DNA from: a virus
IMG/VR virus record: IMGVR_UViG_3300023181_000072
Location: 1 to 28,352 of that record
Strand: one strand, 5' to 3'
DNA length: 28,352 nucleotides
This document shows, one piece after another, positions 9,056 through 25,027 of the stretch (position 1 is the stretch's first letter; the number at the start of each line of letters is the position of its first letter). The notes beneath the pieces were generated by a model, which worked only from the letters and a program-made list of their open reading frames with translations, had not been told where the DNA came from and made no database searches. A program made the position numbers and the translations under genes.

Positions 9056-11158
9056 CTAAATAGATACTGTTGCTTTTTCATATCCGCCTTGGCGTATAAG
9101 ATCGTTTTCCAAGCCCTTATTAGCGGCCTGTTCTAATTTATCAGCGGCATTCGCCTGTTCTGTGATTGTTTTGGCCTGTGACAAGGCTGTGTCTGCGGCG
9201 AGTTTGGCCATTTGTGCCTGATTGAGTTGGCTTGTAACTTCCTGCAATTGAGCCTGAAGTTTCTGCATCTCAGCCATTGGGACCATATCGGACGGTTGAA
9301 GCGTTTTAACAAGTCGCGCCCTGACATCTCCCGGTAGTGGAAGCATTTGAAGGGACTCGGCCAAGAATGCCTGACCAGCGGACGGATTGAACGGCATAAC
9401 ACGGTCTGCATACGTACCCAATACGGTAGCGGTTTCCTGCTTGTCTTCCGGTGTTTGTGGGGATTCCTGAACGCTTACAGCATATTCGGCATATAGCATG
9501 TCTTCAGCTACATCGATGAAGTCTTCGCCACCGTCAGGACCAGCAATCATAACGCTTGCTCCCTCATTATTCTGCACCCATACAGGAATAAGATCGAGAT
9601 GCAGCCTGGCATCTTCCTTCTGGTAAAGCGTAACTGAATCAAAGTACTTGGATAGTTTCGATATGATTTGACGAATGCGGCGTTTGAAGAAAATACCCGA
9701 CTGGTCTTCTCTCTCGACATTCCCCATGAACGCACTTGGCACGCCATTGGCTGATATATTCTGGTCTGCTAATGTAAGGATGGTTTCCAGTCCCGTTGGA
9801 ACGGCGGGTTGCGCCTTGGGCATGATCTTGTTGTTTTGGACTGTACCGGATCGAACAACACACACGCCATCCGTCTTGGCATAGTTCTCAGTGAACTCAA
9901 CAATGTCCTCAACTGCGTCTTCCTCAATAATAACCCCGCCCTTAGAATTAGCAGCAAGGGCGAAAAGCATTTCAGTTAAAGCTTTATTAAAATACTCCGC
10001 AGGTTCCATCATGGCATTGGTCATGCCGACCCAGATATTATGAGTTTCATCATAGTATCCAGTCTTGAACTTGATAGAGAAACCTTGCTGAGAAATGGAT
10101 TTAAACGCTGAGAATACGTGGTCACCGGAGACTACGGCTGTATAGAAGCATTTACGTGTAAAGGGAATGGGAGTGATTAAATCGCCAAACTCGGCAACCA
10201 ATCGGCCCTTGGTAGCCTGGTCAAAGAAGATTGTCTGAGCGGTAGGATCGAAGTCAAACATGTCACTAATGACAATGTTTTCAGGGCCCTCGTCTTTAAT
10301 CTCGGAGAAAATAACATCCAGCTTGGCTTTCATATAAAGCGCATCAAGCGGGTCTTCGGCTAAATAAATAGGGTTTTCAGCTTTATAAAACGTCTCGTAT
10401 TCCATCCATTGATGGTTATAAACCCGGACTGTTTCCTCTTCCTGAGAGGCCCACTCTACTGAATCAAGGACTTTAATCCTGTCATACAACCCACCCCAAG
10501 GATTGTAAGTATAGCCTTTTTGATTGTCATCAGTTGGAACGGGTTCAAAGTCTTCCTTCTTGCTCTTCTGAAATAGATTAAGAGCGTCTTTTAAATCGTA
10601 ATCATCGTGATATCCCATATACCGGGAATCAAGTAAGTTCTTTGCTCTTGCTCTGCCATCCCAGTAAACTTGATCGGCGCGCAGTTTCTTCTTTAATATC
10701 TCACCATTGGGTGTAGTAGTCGATCTGCCAACCATATATGACAAGTCTGTATCAATCCCCCCATAACCATTGATTAACATGTCTGTATCTTGGTCTGTTT
10801 CTAGCTGATCGGCGTTTTGATTGTCTCTATGAAATGTGTAATAAGCATTCATATTCTTTGAATACTGTTCCTGCCCCTGATCTTCACTGACTCTCGCTGT
10901 GAACTTGGCTTGTCGGCGGTTTTGTGCAAGGAACCCGGAGACGCTATCAATATTTTCCTGAATCTTACCGAAGTTAACCATGGCTCGACGCTTGGCTCCA
11001 TCCTTCTCGGCAAACTCTATCTGGTCACGATAGTAACCAATGTCGTTATTATAGAAAGCCTGACATTTTTTGGTATTTTGATACTGGCCATCCAAAGCAC
11101 GCTGGGACTGCTTGAGCTGTTTTTTAAATAGCTTGGCGACTTCTTCTTTAGACTTCAC
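9056..11158 (-). CDS. Portal protein, P22-like
   Basis: A 700-residue protein that would form the dodecameric ring at one head vertex, through which DNA is packaged and released. It starts with GTG 11158-11156, overlapping the terminase stop in a GTGA junction, with GGAGAG upstream. The N-terminus (QYQNTKKCQAFYNNDIGY, then RRAMVNFGKIQENIDSVSGF) resembles P22-type portals. So does the region NGYGGIDTDLSYMVGRSTTT and the core segment TGLETILTLADQNISANGVP. The last 100 residues are a long alanine/glutamine-rich helical stretch (QKLQAQLQEVTSQLNQAQMA) like the barrel of P22 gp1. The length matches P22-type portals (about 700). It ends with TAG, so amber is a normal stop in this genome. Confidence 0.86.
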   Translation of the reverse strand: MKSKEEVAKLFKKQLKQSQRALDGQYQNTKKCQAFYNNDIGYYRDQIEFAEKDGAKRRAMVNFGKIQENIDSVSGFLAQNRRQAKFTARVSEDQGQEQYSKNMNAYYTFHRDNQNADQLETDQDTDMLINGYGGIDTDLSYMVGRSTTTPNGEILKKKLRADQVYWDGRARAKNLLDSRYMGYHDDYDLKDALNLFQKSKKEDFEPVPTDDNQKGYTYNPWGGLYDRIKVLDSVEWASQEEETVRVYNHQWMEYETFYKAENPIYLAEDPLDALYMKAKLDVIFSEIKDEGPENIVISDMFDFDPTAQTIFFDQATKGRLVAEFGDLITPIPFTRKCFYTAVVSGDHVFSAFKSISQQGFSIKFKTGYYDETHNIWVGMTNAMMEPAEYFNKALTEMLFALAANSKGGVIIEEDAVEDIVEFTENYAKTDGVCVVRSGTVQNNKIMPKAQPAVPTGLETILTLADQNISANGVPSAFMGNVEREDQSGIFFKRRIRQIISKLSKYFDSVTLYQKEDARLHLDLIPVWVQNNEGASVMIAGPDGGEDFIDVAEDMLYAEYAVSVQESPQTPEDKQETATVLGTYADRVMPFNPSAGQAFLAESLQMLPLPGDVRARLVKTLQPSDMVPMAEMQKLQAQLQEVTSQLNQAQMAKLAADTALSQAKTITEQANAADKLEQAANKGLENDLIRQGGYEKATVSI

Positions 11159-19715: not shown

Positions 19716-20297
19716 TCAAGCAAAAGGGATTGTATCCCCTTCTTTCCAGTCAAAAAATGTTATTTTCTCCTCAACCTGGTCAATTTTAACACTCAGGCCA
19801 TAAACCTGATTCTCTCTCTCATTCATAAGATTTGCCATTTCCTGCAAGGTGACAATCCGGCAATCTTCCGTTGCCTGATGTGCCAGTAATTTTGCATCAG
19901 CCACAGTATAACAAATCTTATAAAGCGTTCCTGACGGGTGTTGATATTCCACATACCTCGGGTCGTTAGGCTGATAGCCATTAGCCAGCGCATTATCCTC
20001 TAAAGCTTTCCAGCCCCTGATCGTGCCTTCCATGAGTTCTTTTAAAACGATAGGATTTTTATCCTGAATTGCCTGATTAACTTTTTCAAGCTGTCTCATC
20101 CATTTTGCTTTCATATCATCCGTGACCATGCCCTCCAGCCTGTTGACACCCCACCTGGCCTCATAGTCGATTGCCACTTGATCCAGTCTGTCAATAATCC
20201 TGTTTACCTGTAGCTCATCCGGTGTCGCGTTCATCTCTGAAATCCAATCTATTCTGTGGTTGTTGATAATGTTTCTCATGTGATTATGTTTACTCAT
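19716..20297 (-). CDS. Protein of unknown function next to the repeat cluster
   Basis: A 193-residue product from ATG 20297-20295, with a GGA-type site. A second ATG, at codon 7, is possible. It is mostly helical: ATPDELQVNRIIDRLDQVAI, then QLEKVNQAIQDKNPIVLKEL, with a mixed middle (SGTLYKICYTVADAKLLAHQ) and a coiled-coil end. It lies between the HNH gene and the CATACC cluster and would be the first gene transcribed leftward across or from that cluster. Its neighbourhood suggests replication control, but no domain is recognised. Confidence 0.5.
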   Translation of the reverse strand: MSKHNHMRNIINNHRIDWISEMNATPDELQVNRIIDRLDQVAIDYEARWGVNRLEGMVTDDMKAKWMRQLEKVNQAIQDKNPIVLKELMEGTIRGWKALEDNALANGYQPNDPRYVEYQHPSGTLYKICYTVADAKLLAHQATEDCRIVTLQEMANLMNERENQVYGLSVKIDQVEEKITFFDWKEGDTIPFA

Positions 20298-20342
20298 TCC
20301 ATATCCAATTATGTAATTAAAATTTAAAAGAATTTTTTAGTT

Positions 20343-20461
20343 GACATACCCGGTATGTCGGTGGTATGCCATAAAGGCATAACCACACGAAACATACCCG
20401 GTATGTAAGTATGTCCGGTATGAAACATACCCCGTCATACCTTCATTCATACCGTCATACC
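20343..20461. repeat. Cluster of ten CATACC/GGTATG motifs with two palindromes
   Basis: The hexamer CATACC or its complement occurs at 20345, 20352, 20363, 20393, 20400, 20417, 20426, 20436, 20448 and 20456. Two sites pair into near-perfect palindromes: GACATACCCGGTATGTC (20343-20359) and ACATACCCGGTATGT (20392-20406), centred 48 bp apart. The others form spaced or tandem half-sites, and the last one overlaps the stop of the primase-helicase gene. A TTGACA element (20341-20346) overlaps the first palindrome. This looks like a replication origin with iterons or a multi-site operator. Which one cannot be told from sequence. Confidence 0.75.
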
Positions 20462-22569
20462 TCGCCATTTTCAGCCTCAAACACAGGCCAGATATAGCCT
20501 CTGTCAAAGTTGACTTTTCCTAGTTTCTTAAGGCCCATTCTGGCAGTCTGGGTTGCTGATTTTACCTGTTCCGCAGTGGTCTTTTTCTCGGTTGCCATCA
20601 TTTCCTTAAAGCCTTTTTCTTCCATGACTATCCGCAGATCGTCATAAGAAACTGACAGAATTTTTGCCTGTCCTTTATAGATAGAACGCTCCGATCCGCT
20701 CCTTGTTATGGCCTCTACCAGGCAATCATAAATGAATGTCTGAATTGGATTAAGTCTTGCTGTTTTAGATTTTGCGACAGGTGCATCTTTTTCTATAACA
20801 ACGCAACTCGTAACCATCTCTCCATAATTATCCGGCGCAAGCTCTACAATTTTAAGACCGAAAAACATGTCTTCTGCCATCTCCATGTCCCTTTGTTTAA
20901 CGGATTTTATAAGACTAAAATCATCCCCTTCACCCCGGCTGATTTCAATTTCGGTATCAACCGCAGCCCGTAAGCTTGAGTGCCCCCTGGCCCCCTTGGC
21001 CGCATCTTTACCGCTATGATGAACAAAGCAGATATGCGCCCCTGTATGCGCCCTTAGAATGTCGGCGTGTTTTACAAGCATTCCCATATCCTGTCCGTTA
21101 TTCTCGTCGCCTCCTGCCATTGCACGGGCAAGAGTATCAATAACCACAAGCTTTACATCTCCGACCTGTTCTTTTATTTCCTCAATAACCTCGATAAATT
21201 CACCTATATTCCCTTTAGGGTCCAGAAAATCAATCGTGCAAGGAACAACCGCCAGAGGCATATTATCCTGCAAAATCATGTTTTCTTTCTTAAAGGCATA
21301 AATACGGTTTGACAGTCCATAAGAACCTTCCATCGGGACGTATATAACCCCTCCCTTATCCACCCGCCTGTCTCGCCATTGACGGCCAAGAGCGACATGA
21401 AAGGCGATATCTGCCATGAAGAAGGTTTTCCCACAGTTGGACTCCCCGTAAACAACCGACATCTGCCCGCGCCCGAACATGCCTTGCACAAAAGTATTAT
21501 TTTCAAGGGAGGGCTTTATGTCCTTTGAAAATATGTATTTAATTTTGCGTTCTTTGCGCTCAAACTCAGGCGGCGCGCCAGTTTCTATTATTTCGCCTGT
21601 TATTTCATCAAACTTATTGATTTCATTGATATTTTCTGTGCGCGCTTCTTTTATAGGCGGAACATAAGGAACCCTGGACTGAGGTTTCCACCCTCCATTT
21701 TTAGCATGATGAACAAGGCTCCCAATCGTAACACCAGAAGATTTAAAGCTATTCCATTTGGATATTGTTTCGCCCTGAACGTACTTTGAACCAGCTTGTG
21801 ACCATTGATCCCATATGGTGAATGGCACATTATAGGAATGCAGAGCCATACCGATCTGATACCAGTCATCATAATTCGAATCCGGGTCAATATAAGAAAG
21901 CATGTCCTTAATATCATCAATTGACCATTCCGAATCATGCAGATGCAAATGTGTTTTATTAGAAATATCTAATTTTGTCTTAGCTTCCGGCTTGGTAGCA
22001 ACAGCGCACACAATGTCCAATAACCATTCAGGGGCTGGCTCTATAACTTCTAACGGATTAACCCATTCATATTTACGACCAGACGCATGATTTGAACCGG
22101 GTCCCACAACCTGACCGCCCTCACCCCTGACATCCAGATTTTCGCCTAACTTTGACGTTCGCCCGAAAACTTTCCTGTCTGGGTACTGGAAGAACAAGTG
22201 CCTTCCCCCACTTCCGGTCTTTGCTGTGAGGGTAACTGGCAACTGCCCATGAATTTTTTGCAATTCAATTAAAGAAGCCTCGCCCACCATCCCATCTATA
22301 TCAAGAACAAAAATCCCCGACTCTGGTCCCGTAGCAATACCATAATTATAATTATCGTTTGTCCCGGAAAAGAGGTTAATAATTTCCTGCTTATCCTGGC
22401 TGGCCTTCTTTTGCCATTCTGAAATGCTAGGATGTTTACCAGCACTGGAACAATCAATTTTTCCGCAAGTGCATCCTCCGAATTCCAGTGGCCCATGTAC
22501 GGGCATAACACGGAATTTATAAACACTGGCTGTTGTGAGGGCGTTTTTTAAAGGAATTGTTTCGTTCAT
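20455..22569 (-). CDS. Fused primase-polymerase/replicative helicase
   Basis: A 704-residue protein from ATG 22569-22567; an upstream ATG at 22617 lies in the shared promoter and is not preferred. Residues 1-190 form a bifunctional primase-polymerase domain: CTCGKIDC (33-40), the metal-binding LDID (89-92), SGGRHLFF (120-127) and DVRGEGGQVV (146-155). Residues about 214-300 resemble a PriCT-type primase C-terminal domain. Residues about 350-545 are a RepA/KaiC-like ATPase: Walker A GESNCGKTF (375-383), Walker B LVVID (474-478) and HHSGKD (517-522). The end resembles a winged-helix tail. It should synthesise primers and unwind DNA. It is the key replication enzyme and lies beside a repeat cluster. 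Confidence 0.88.
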   Translation of the reverse strand: MNETIPLKNALTTASVYKFRVMPVHGPLEFGGCTCGKIDCSSAGKHPSISEWQKKASQDKQEIINLFSGTNDNYNYGIATGPESGIFVLDIDGMVGEASLIELQKIHGQLPVTLTAKTGSGGRHLFFQYPDRKVFGRTSKLGENLDVRGEGGQVVGPGSNHASGRKYEWVNPLEVIEPAPEWLLDIVCAVATKPEAKTKLDISNKTHLHLHDSEWSIDDIKDMLSYIDPDSNYDDWYQIGMALHSYNVPFTIWDQWSQAGSKYVQGETISKWNSFKSSGVTIGSLVHHAKNGGWKPQSRVPYVPPIKEARTENINEINKFDEITGEIIETGAPPEFERKERKIKYIFSKDIKPSLENNTFVQGMFGRGQMSVVYGESNCGKTFFMADIAFHVALGRQWRDRRVDKGGVIYVPMEGSYGLSNRIYAFKKENMILQDNMPLAVVPCTIDFLDPKGNIGEFIEVIEEIKEQVGDVKLVVIDTLARAMAGGDENNGQDMGMLVKHADILRAHTGAHICFVHHSGKDAAKGARGHSSLRAAVDTEIEISRGEGDDFSLIKSVKQRDMEMAEDMFFGLKIVELAPDNYGEMVTSCVVIEKDAPVAKSKTARLNPIQTFIYDCLVEAITRSGSERSIYKGQAKILSVSYDDLRIVMEEKGFKEMMATEKKTTAEQVKSATQTARMGLKKLGKVNFDRGYIWPVFEAENGEV

Positions 22570-22589
22570 TATTTTTTCTCTTTTATTTG

Positions 22590-22648
22590 TTGACACACCA
22601 AAAGATATTTTATACAAAGGTCATAGTCAATACAATTTGATACAAAGA
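22590..22648. promoter_or_regulatory. Divergent promoters with three ATACAA repeats
   Basis: Plus strand: TTGACA (22590-22595) with a candidate -10 at TACAAA (22613-22618, 17-base spacer) or TATACA (22611-22616). Minus strand: TTGTAT (22635-22630), 17-base spacer, TAAAAT (22612-22607). The two promoters overlap. Three direct repeats beginning ATACAA lie at 22612, 22630 and 22640, 18 and 10 bases apart, on top of the promoter elements. They are likely operators, perhaps for the ribbon-helix-helix protein next door; the -10 choice is uncertain. Confidence 0.55.
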
Positions 22649-22657
22649 GAAATAAAT

Positions 22658-22810
22658 ATGCCGGAGCCATTAGACGTTATTCATTGCACAATTACAAAGC
22701 AAATGAATAAAAGAATTAAAAAAGCACAAATGCTCACCTCTATAAAAAATCGCAGCGAGTTTATGCGATTGTTAATTGCGGAAGCTTTGCACGCCAGAGG
22801 TATTAAATGA
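22658..22810 (+). CDS. Ribbon-helix-helix-like regulator
   Basis: A 50-residue protein starting at ATG 22658; a longer frame from 22535 would run through the divergent promoter and is rejected. It has a short beta-like start (DVIHCTIT), then KQMNKRIKKAQMLTSI and NRSEFMRLLIAEALHARG, matching the strand-helix-helix plan of Arc/MetJ-type repressors, which bind DNA as dimers. Its gene abuts the divergent promoter with ATACAA repeats and overlaps the exonuclease gene by four bases, so it probably regulates both. The fold is inferred from pattern only. Confidence 0.6.
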   Translation: MPEPLDVIHCTITKQMNKRIKKAQMLTSIKNRSEFMRLLIAEALHARGIK

Positions 22811-24278: not shown

Positions 24279-24737
24279 ATGAATATTCTAGGTGTAGACA
24301 TAGGCTTTTCCGGCGCACTTTCTTTTTATGATGGAAGCGAATTATTGATTTATGACATGCCGATTTATGAAGTTAAAAAAGGAAACGCCCTTGATATACG
24401 TCAATTGTCTCAAATCATAAAAACCAATAAACCGGAATCCTGTTATCTGGAACGGGCCATGCTTATGCCAAGCAATGGAAAAAGCTCTTATCAAAAACTT
24501 GGAATATCTCAGGGGGCCTTTGAGGGCATTCTGTGCGCTCTGGACATACCATATACAATTGTGGCCCCTGCGGTCTGGAAATCCAGGCTTGATTGTCCCA
24601 AAGATAAATCTGCGGCCCGTATGAGGGCATCTCAACTTCTACCAGCGCATTCCCACAATTGGGATTTGAAAAAGCATGATGGAAGGGCGGAGGCAAGCTT
24701 AATAGCTTTGTACGGTTACAATCATTTAAGAAAATGA
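24279..24737 (+). CDS. RuvC-like Holliday junction resolvase
   Basis: A 152-residue protein of the RNase H-fold RuvC group. The N-terminus MNILGVDIGFSGALSFYDGS carries Asp7; CYLERAML carries Glu58; and the C-terminal KKHDGRAEASLIALYGY carries His133, Asp134 and Glu138. These are the four acidic positions expected for metal binding. The length is normal. It resolves branched DNA before packaging. Start ATG 24279 has AAGGA upstream. It lies after a terminator, so its level depends on read-through. Its stop overlaps the next start as ATGA. Confidence 0.85.
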   Translation: MNILGVDIGFSGALSFYDGSELLIYDMPIYEVKKGNALDIRQLSQIIKTNKPESCYLERAMLMPSNGKSSYQKLGISQGAFEGILCALDIPYTIVAPAVWKSRLDCPKDKSAARMRASQLLPAHSHNWDLKKHDGRAEASLIALYGYNHLRK

Positions 24738-25027
24738 AATCCCACGATCAATCCCGCATTGACTCATATAGAAAAAGATTCAGGGAAGAAATATTTTTGA
24801 TTTGCGGAATTCATAATATCACTCCTCACGATTTATGGGGCAAAGACAAAAAGCATAAGTTTGTTTGCGCTCGCCGTGAGTTTTGTTTTAAGCTTCGGGA
24901 AAGGGGGATATCAATTGAAATGATAAGCAATATTTTAAACCGTGACCATACAAGCATTTGTTATCTTTTGGGTACAAAGAACAGGAACGTCAAGATGGGA
25001 CGGCCAAGGGCTTTTAAAGCCGATTAA
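24734..25027 (+). CDS. Stand-alone DnaA domain-IV-like protein
   Basis: A 97-residue protein starting inside the resolvase stop (ATGA). Residues 45-80 (CARREFCFKLRERGISIEMI then SNILNRDHTSICYLLG) match the DnaA C-terminal DNA-binding helix-turn-helix: the signature usually reads S-x-x-x-I-G-x-x-x-x-x-R-D-H-T-T-V, and RDHTSI is at 70-75. There is no ATPase domain. Such proteins may bind the phage origin or host DnaA boxes; the function is inference. Its 3' end overlaps the convergent membrane gene by 14 bases. Confidence 0.7.
   Translation: MKSHDQSRIDSYRKRFREEIFLICGIHNITPHDLWGKDKKHKFVCARREFCFKLRERGISIEMISNILNRDHTSICYLLGTKNRNVKMGRPRAFKAD

Follow-up and report, generated by a model that had tools for sequence, protein, structure and literature searches.

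The stretch of DNA analyzed here, referred to as the window, is a virus record of 28,352 bases that encodes a P22-type portal, a capsid, and a terminase. Positions 20455–22617 of its minus strand encode a primase-helicase of 720 amino acids, in which Prim-Pol, PriCT_2, and AAA_25 domains were recognized, the last being a RepA-like RecA-fold ATPase. The gene that follows next beyond the repeats described below, ORF-B (193 amino acids; 19716–20297, minus strand), has no Pfam or PHROG match; single-sequence searches for it were empty, and its predicted structure returned no meaningful match. An HNH protein, a RuvC-like resolvase, and a DnaA-domain-IV-like protein are encoded in the same neighborhood. 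At 24734–25027, a 97-amino acid protein resembles the DNA-binding domain IV of DnaA alone (Pfam, below the cut-off), and a 50-amino acid ORF without Pfam or PHROG match lies between divergent early genes (22658–22810); judged by eye, the latter could be a small DNA-binding regulator. The P22-type portal is encoded at 9056–11158, yet the replication module has its homolog in CRP-822-type roseophages, a combination that points to an exchange of modules across virion types.

Ten exact copies of the hexamer CATACC/GGTATG, in both orientations, are found at 20345–20461, with starts at 20345, 20352, 20363, 20393, 20400, 20417, 20426, 20436, 20448, and 20456, and are accompanied by degenerate copies (e.g. 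20409–20414). This array, the palindromes within it, and the AT-rich stretch beside it were recorded without a strand. An earlier note on this DNA had described ten hexamers in two orientations and two palindromes with arms of 8 and 7 bp centered 48 bp apart, and the exact listing agreed on every count. Palindrome 1 (20344–20358; center 20351) reads ACATACCCGGTATGT, with 8-bp arms GACATACC-C-GGTATGTC, and palindrome 2 (20392–20406; center 20399) reads ACATACCCGGTATGT, with 7-bp arms ACATACC-C-GGTATGT. The array was also correctly said to end on the stop codon of the primase-helicase gene: the last copy overlaps the TGA at 20455–20457, so that the array starts inside the last codon, and the final Val and stop codons are written by an iteron. 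The top hexamer count in 20300–20480 is 10; dinucleotide shuffling of this stretch, done 2000 times, gave 6 at most, and among 100 shuffled windows there was none in which a hexamer reached 10 copies within 139 nt.

Within the array, an imperfect hairpin occupies 20363–20384 on the minus strand (GGTTATGCC-TTTAT-GGCATACC on the coding strand; GGTATGCC-ATAAA-GGCATAACC as presented), and its arms are themselves degenerate iteron copies. Adjoining the array, an AT-rich stretch (20300–20340) contains a 30-mer of 93% AT that is unequaled in control stretches of the window and is a candidate unwinding element. A check of GC skew, which the earlier note had proposed, was run on the window and gave a monotonic profile that is uninformative on an origin in either direction. 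DnaA-like boxes did not cluster at the array in a scan of the window, no Rfam family matched the array region, and a simple scan returned no promoter- or terminator-like site there.

Related loci were examined in two sets. Set 1 comprised 84 loci and was drawn from helicase-alignment searches, which gave viral loci, isolated phages, and 69 bacterial-genome loci, chiefly from Alphaproteobacteria with some from Akkermansiaceae. When the region 3′ of each helicase gene was scanned against other stretches of the same locus, it fell within the top 5% for repeated hexamers in 58 of the 84 loci (4.2 expected) and was strictly the most repeat-rich stretch in 48. Of the 26 loci that missed the 5% cut, some have a small array or one inside the end of the gene, and in others none was seen. 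Set 2 came from a separate scan around the helicase of the marine roseophage CRP-831 and added 76 loci; with L055 and L083 common to both, the two sets are not wholly independent. Arrays follow nearly all of the 79 helicase genes in set 2, often sharing the orientation scaffold ++----++-- despite different words.

In most relatives, the array sits where it does in the window, directly after the helicase gene or inside its end, with a different repeated word. Words found include CGGACA, CGTGACA, CCAGACA, GTAACA, CATCACA, TGTATAA, and ACTACAAA, among others, whereas L046 has GGTATGT, the same as the window. Relatives without an array beside the helicase had been named in advance as grounds against an origin; on inspection the array was at the same place, mostly with another word. 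A motif search in related phages had also been proposed, but CATACCCGGTATG alone would miss these arrays, as it finds unrelated single sites; it was arrays with other words that were present. Likewise, when viral contigs were searched for exact ACATACCCGGTATGT, single sites alone were returned and no cluster like that of the window. A short-repeat array adjoining an initiator helicase gene is thus a feature of the window and of its relatives, and across the sequences compared it is the architecture that is conserved and not the word. The proposal that the array is an origin beside a RepA-like helicase gains strong support from this comparison. In Rhizobium phage 16-3, CGTGACA occurs 25 times over the 49.7 kb covered, with 15 of these copies inside 367 bp after p101 (L129:45746–46112), and this array is likely to be the unannotated origin of this classic model phage.

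The hairpin recurs as well. Perfect hairpins with an A/T loop between closing C-G pairs, typically of the form CCC-TWWA-GGG, were found in 22 of 84 set-1 loci and in 0.6% of control windows. This pattern was defined after set 1 had been seen, and set 2 was a fresh test of it: with the pattern fixed, it was present in 52 of 79 loci, many of them closely related to one another and thus not 79 independent cases, compared with 0.6% of controls. The hairpin at 20363–20384 is the window version of this conserved element. Constancy of the hairpin amid changing iterons suggests that some constant component acts there.

The other reading in the earlier note was that of a multi-site operator, on which a small phage repressor would control ORF-B or a transcript from a TTGACA box. 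The palindromes and inverted copies would fit a dimeric repressor, the TTGACA (20341–20346) overlaps palindrome 1, and ORF-B is next downstream of the array. However, ORF-B was listed in 12 of 85 related loci, the window included, and most array-bearing loci do without it; because ORF-B is limited to a minority of loci, the array belongs to the helicase and not to ORF-B. The TTGACA box, which had been taken to favor transcriptional control, has no −10 partner, and the simple scan found no promoter-like site at it. In phage 16-3, moreover, the mapped operators of the C repressor lie elsewhere and differ in sequence from the CGTGACA array. An operator bank tied to a regulated promoter or downstream gene was accordingly rejected as a class for the array, and the operator reading as a whole is improbable. 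At one locus (L045:3760–3766), ORF-B starts a few nucleotides past the helicase stop, and the array was not found there.

The most plausible reader of the repeats is the helicase itself, a possibility that the earlier note had not raised, just as it had not recorded the hairpin, the degenerate copies, or the AT-rich stretch. The C-terminal part of the primase-helicase (20455–20748, minus strand), the proposed iteron reader on the basis of AlphaFold, fold matches, and covariation, was predicted as a winged helix with a mean pLDDT of 89 and a recognition helix at approximately residues 682–698. Its fold matches in the PDB were weak, with E-values that were not significant, and were mostly to winged-helix proteins; a DNA-binding domain at the helicase C terminus is thus indicated by the prediction, with weak fold matches beside it. 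The C-terminal ∼100 residues are variable among relatives.

This variation was compared with that of the iterons. In the 48 array-bearing loci of set 1, iteron similarity correlated with similarity of the C-terminal domain once the ATPase core was corrected for (partial r 0.26, p 0.001), and the converse test, iteron against core with the domain corrected for, gave p 0.92 in the same 48 loci. Among 33 non-redundant members of set 2, the partial correlation with the domain given the core was 0.54 (p 0.0005) and that with the core given the domain was 0.08 (p 0.06) by Pearson, whereas in a rank-based test both partials were ∼0.28, so that signal also remains for the core. A word that tracks the helicase's own C-terminal domain is a further point against a phage repressor as the reader.

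Natural swaps point the same way. The helicases of CRP-821 and CRP-823, roseophages of the same host strain, share 97.4% identity in the N-terminal part and 98.8% in the core but 67% in the C-terminal domain. Not one iteron is the same in the two (TGTATAA versus ACTACAAA), whereas the orientation scaffold and the central hairpin, written CCCTTTAGGG or AAACCCTTTAGGGTTT, are common to both. Nucleotide identity over the 4-kb replication segment compared is mostly 85–99%. It falls to 52–79% over ∼500 bp that comprise the domain codons and the array, rises again over the following gene, and declines once more past that gene. Because the domain codons adjoin the array, one recombination event could swap both. 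A smaller change separates L178 from L180, the cores of which are 97% identical: TGTTACG in one is TGGTACG in the other in essentially every copy, the one written into the last codons of the gene among them. In the word-switching pairs, the differing residues are spread over the domain and not limited to the recognition helix. Taken with the covariation, these swaps support a reading of the iterons by the helicase C-terminal domain, and a word that changes together with the helicase end looks like a swappable replication password.

We therefore consider the array very probably a phage replication origin, the iterons of which would be bound by the C-terminal domain of the initiator helicase, a reading built on sequence comparison, structure prediction, and analogy. 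The winged-helix domain of the primase-helicase would bind the CATACC/GGTATG iterons directly after its own gene, and this binding would load the RepA-like hexameric ATPase at the array. The AT-rich stretch and the hairpin would be opened after loading, and the first primer would be made by the PrimPol part, possibly at the hairpin. Because the iteron word and the proposed DNA-binding domain adjoin and change together, each lineage would have an origin of its own specificity around a constant central hairpin.

Covariation points to a probable binder and not to the effect of binding, and iterons in plasmids often have negative roles. The C-terminal domain might accordingly bind the array mainly for autoregulation of the helicase gene or for silencing of replication by handcuffing, with initiation elsewhere. 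This is quite improbable, as a site 3′ of the gene is poorly placed for promoter control, the array with its conserved central hairpin and neighboring AT-rich DNA fits an origin, and the precedents at such a position (SaPI, Cch2, and pRN1) are origins or putative origins. Repeats can also expand neutrally, and the array might be an RNA element or a selfish or neutral expansion; such an account is extremely improbable for copies held in both orientations in a fixed scaffold, with words that change in concert and in step with a protein domain, recurrence over many lineages, and neither an Rfam match nor a terminator-like site. Partition (centromere) and packaging (pac or cos) sites can likewise be repeat arrays, but either function is highly improbable here: the array is tied to the helicase, and the annotated cos of 16-3 lies ∼3.6 kb from its array. 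The array is also present in phages for which a probably strictly lytic lifestyle has been described (PMC12629253).

If the array is an origin, as we favor, it would be the likely replication origin for a large, mostly uncharacterized set of phages and prophages. Its natural matched protein–DNA pairs, some of them one base apart per repeat, could reveal the rules by which winged helices read iterons. In the literature searched, a collection with few subscription papers, this element was not found described for this helicase family, and the description of CRP-822-type phages (PMC12629253) contains neither "origin of replication" nor "repeat." The swaps raise the question of why origin specificity should change in strictly lytic phages of the same host. 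One answer, to which we give even weight for and against, is that the winged-helix codons and the iteron array form a physically linked origin-identity cassette that is swapped or diversified as a unit, even by strictly lytic phages of the same host, and keeps the replication machineries of co-infecting relatives apart, with the invariant TWWA hairpin as a common core for opening or priming.

Across the class, a search for prophages that share a genome but differ in iterons returned one genome with two and no more. In one Methylocystis metagenome-assembled genome, the related prophage helicases of L105 and L106 are followed by CGGGACA and CGTGACA iterons, respectively, which are one base apart, as expected if co-resident elements avoid a common origin word. 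The iterons of L123 and L126 likewise differ.

Four known systems share parts of this arrangement. The alpha protein of satellite phage P4 has an SF3-type helicase and a TOPRIM primase, whereas the window protein joins a PrimPol to a RecA-fold RepA-like helicase and its array begins at the stop codon; with a Prim-Pol domain in place of TOPRIM, membership in the P4 alpha family proper was rejected. As summarized in a published account (PMC4234260), P4 alpha unites primase, helicase, and a winged helix that binds origin repeats in one protein, a combination that is matched here if the predicted winged helix is counted. The same source describes, for oriV of RSF1010 (IncQ), a RepA-type helicase, an AEP primase, iterons, and the primase-recognized stem-loops ssiA and ssiB (PMC4234260); the counterpart of the latter here would be the hairpin, a candidate priming signal. 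RSF1010 has separate RepA, RepB′, and RepC proteins with iterons read by RepC, whereas the window has one polypeptide of 720 amino acids with its own predicted winged helix, and an RSF1010 replicon proper, with separate RepA, RepB, and RepC, was rejected on this basis.

In position, there is a likeness to SaPI Rep of Staphylococcus pathogenicity islands and to Cch2 of SCCmec, in which a C-terminal domain recognizes iterons directly downstream of its own gene (PMC7581432); the iterons of the window also lie just 3′ of the helicase gene, with a putative C-terminal reader. Those proteins are DUF927 or D5/Primase_Cterm helicases, whereas in the window a RepA-like AAA_25 domain is fused to a primase, and with AAA_25, Prim-Pol, and PriCT_2 domains the protein was not assigned to the SaPI Rep family proper. 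The arrays described here further differ in holding the conserved CCC-TWWA-GGG hairpin and in belonging mainly to alphaproteobacterial phages and prophages. Plasmids of the pRN1 family resemble the window in encoding a PrimPol-helicase-winged-helix protein with the origin, here proposed, 3′ of the gene; in pRN1 that origin is a stem-loop just beyond the gene (PMC4234260). The pRN1 stem-loop is 100 nt long and its system has an SF3 helicase and no iterons, whereas the window has an iteron array with a short hairpin. In three close relatives of the window (L003:7260–7455, L044:6224–6430, and L048:8034–8220), a long imperfect stem-loop with few repeats follows the helicase gene, in a form reminiscent of the pRN1 origin.
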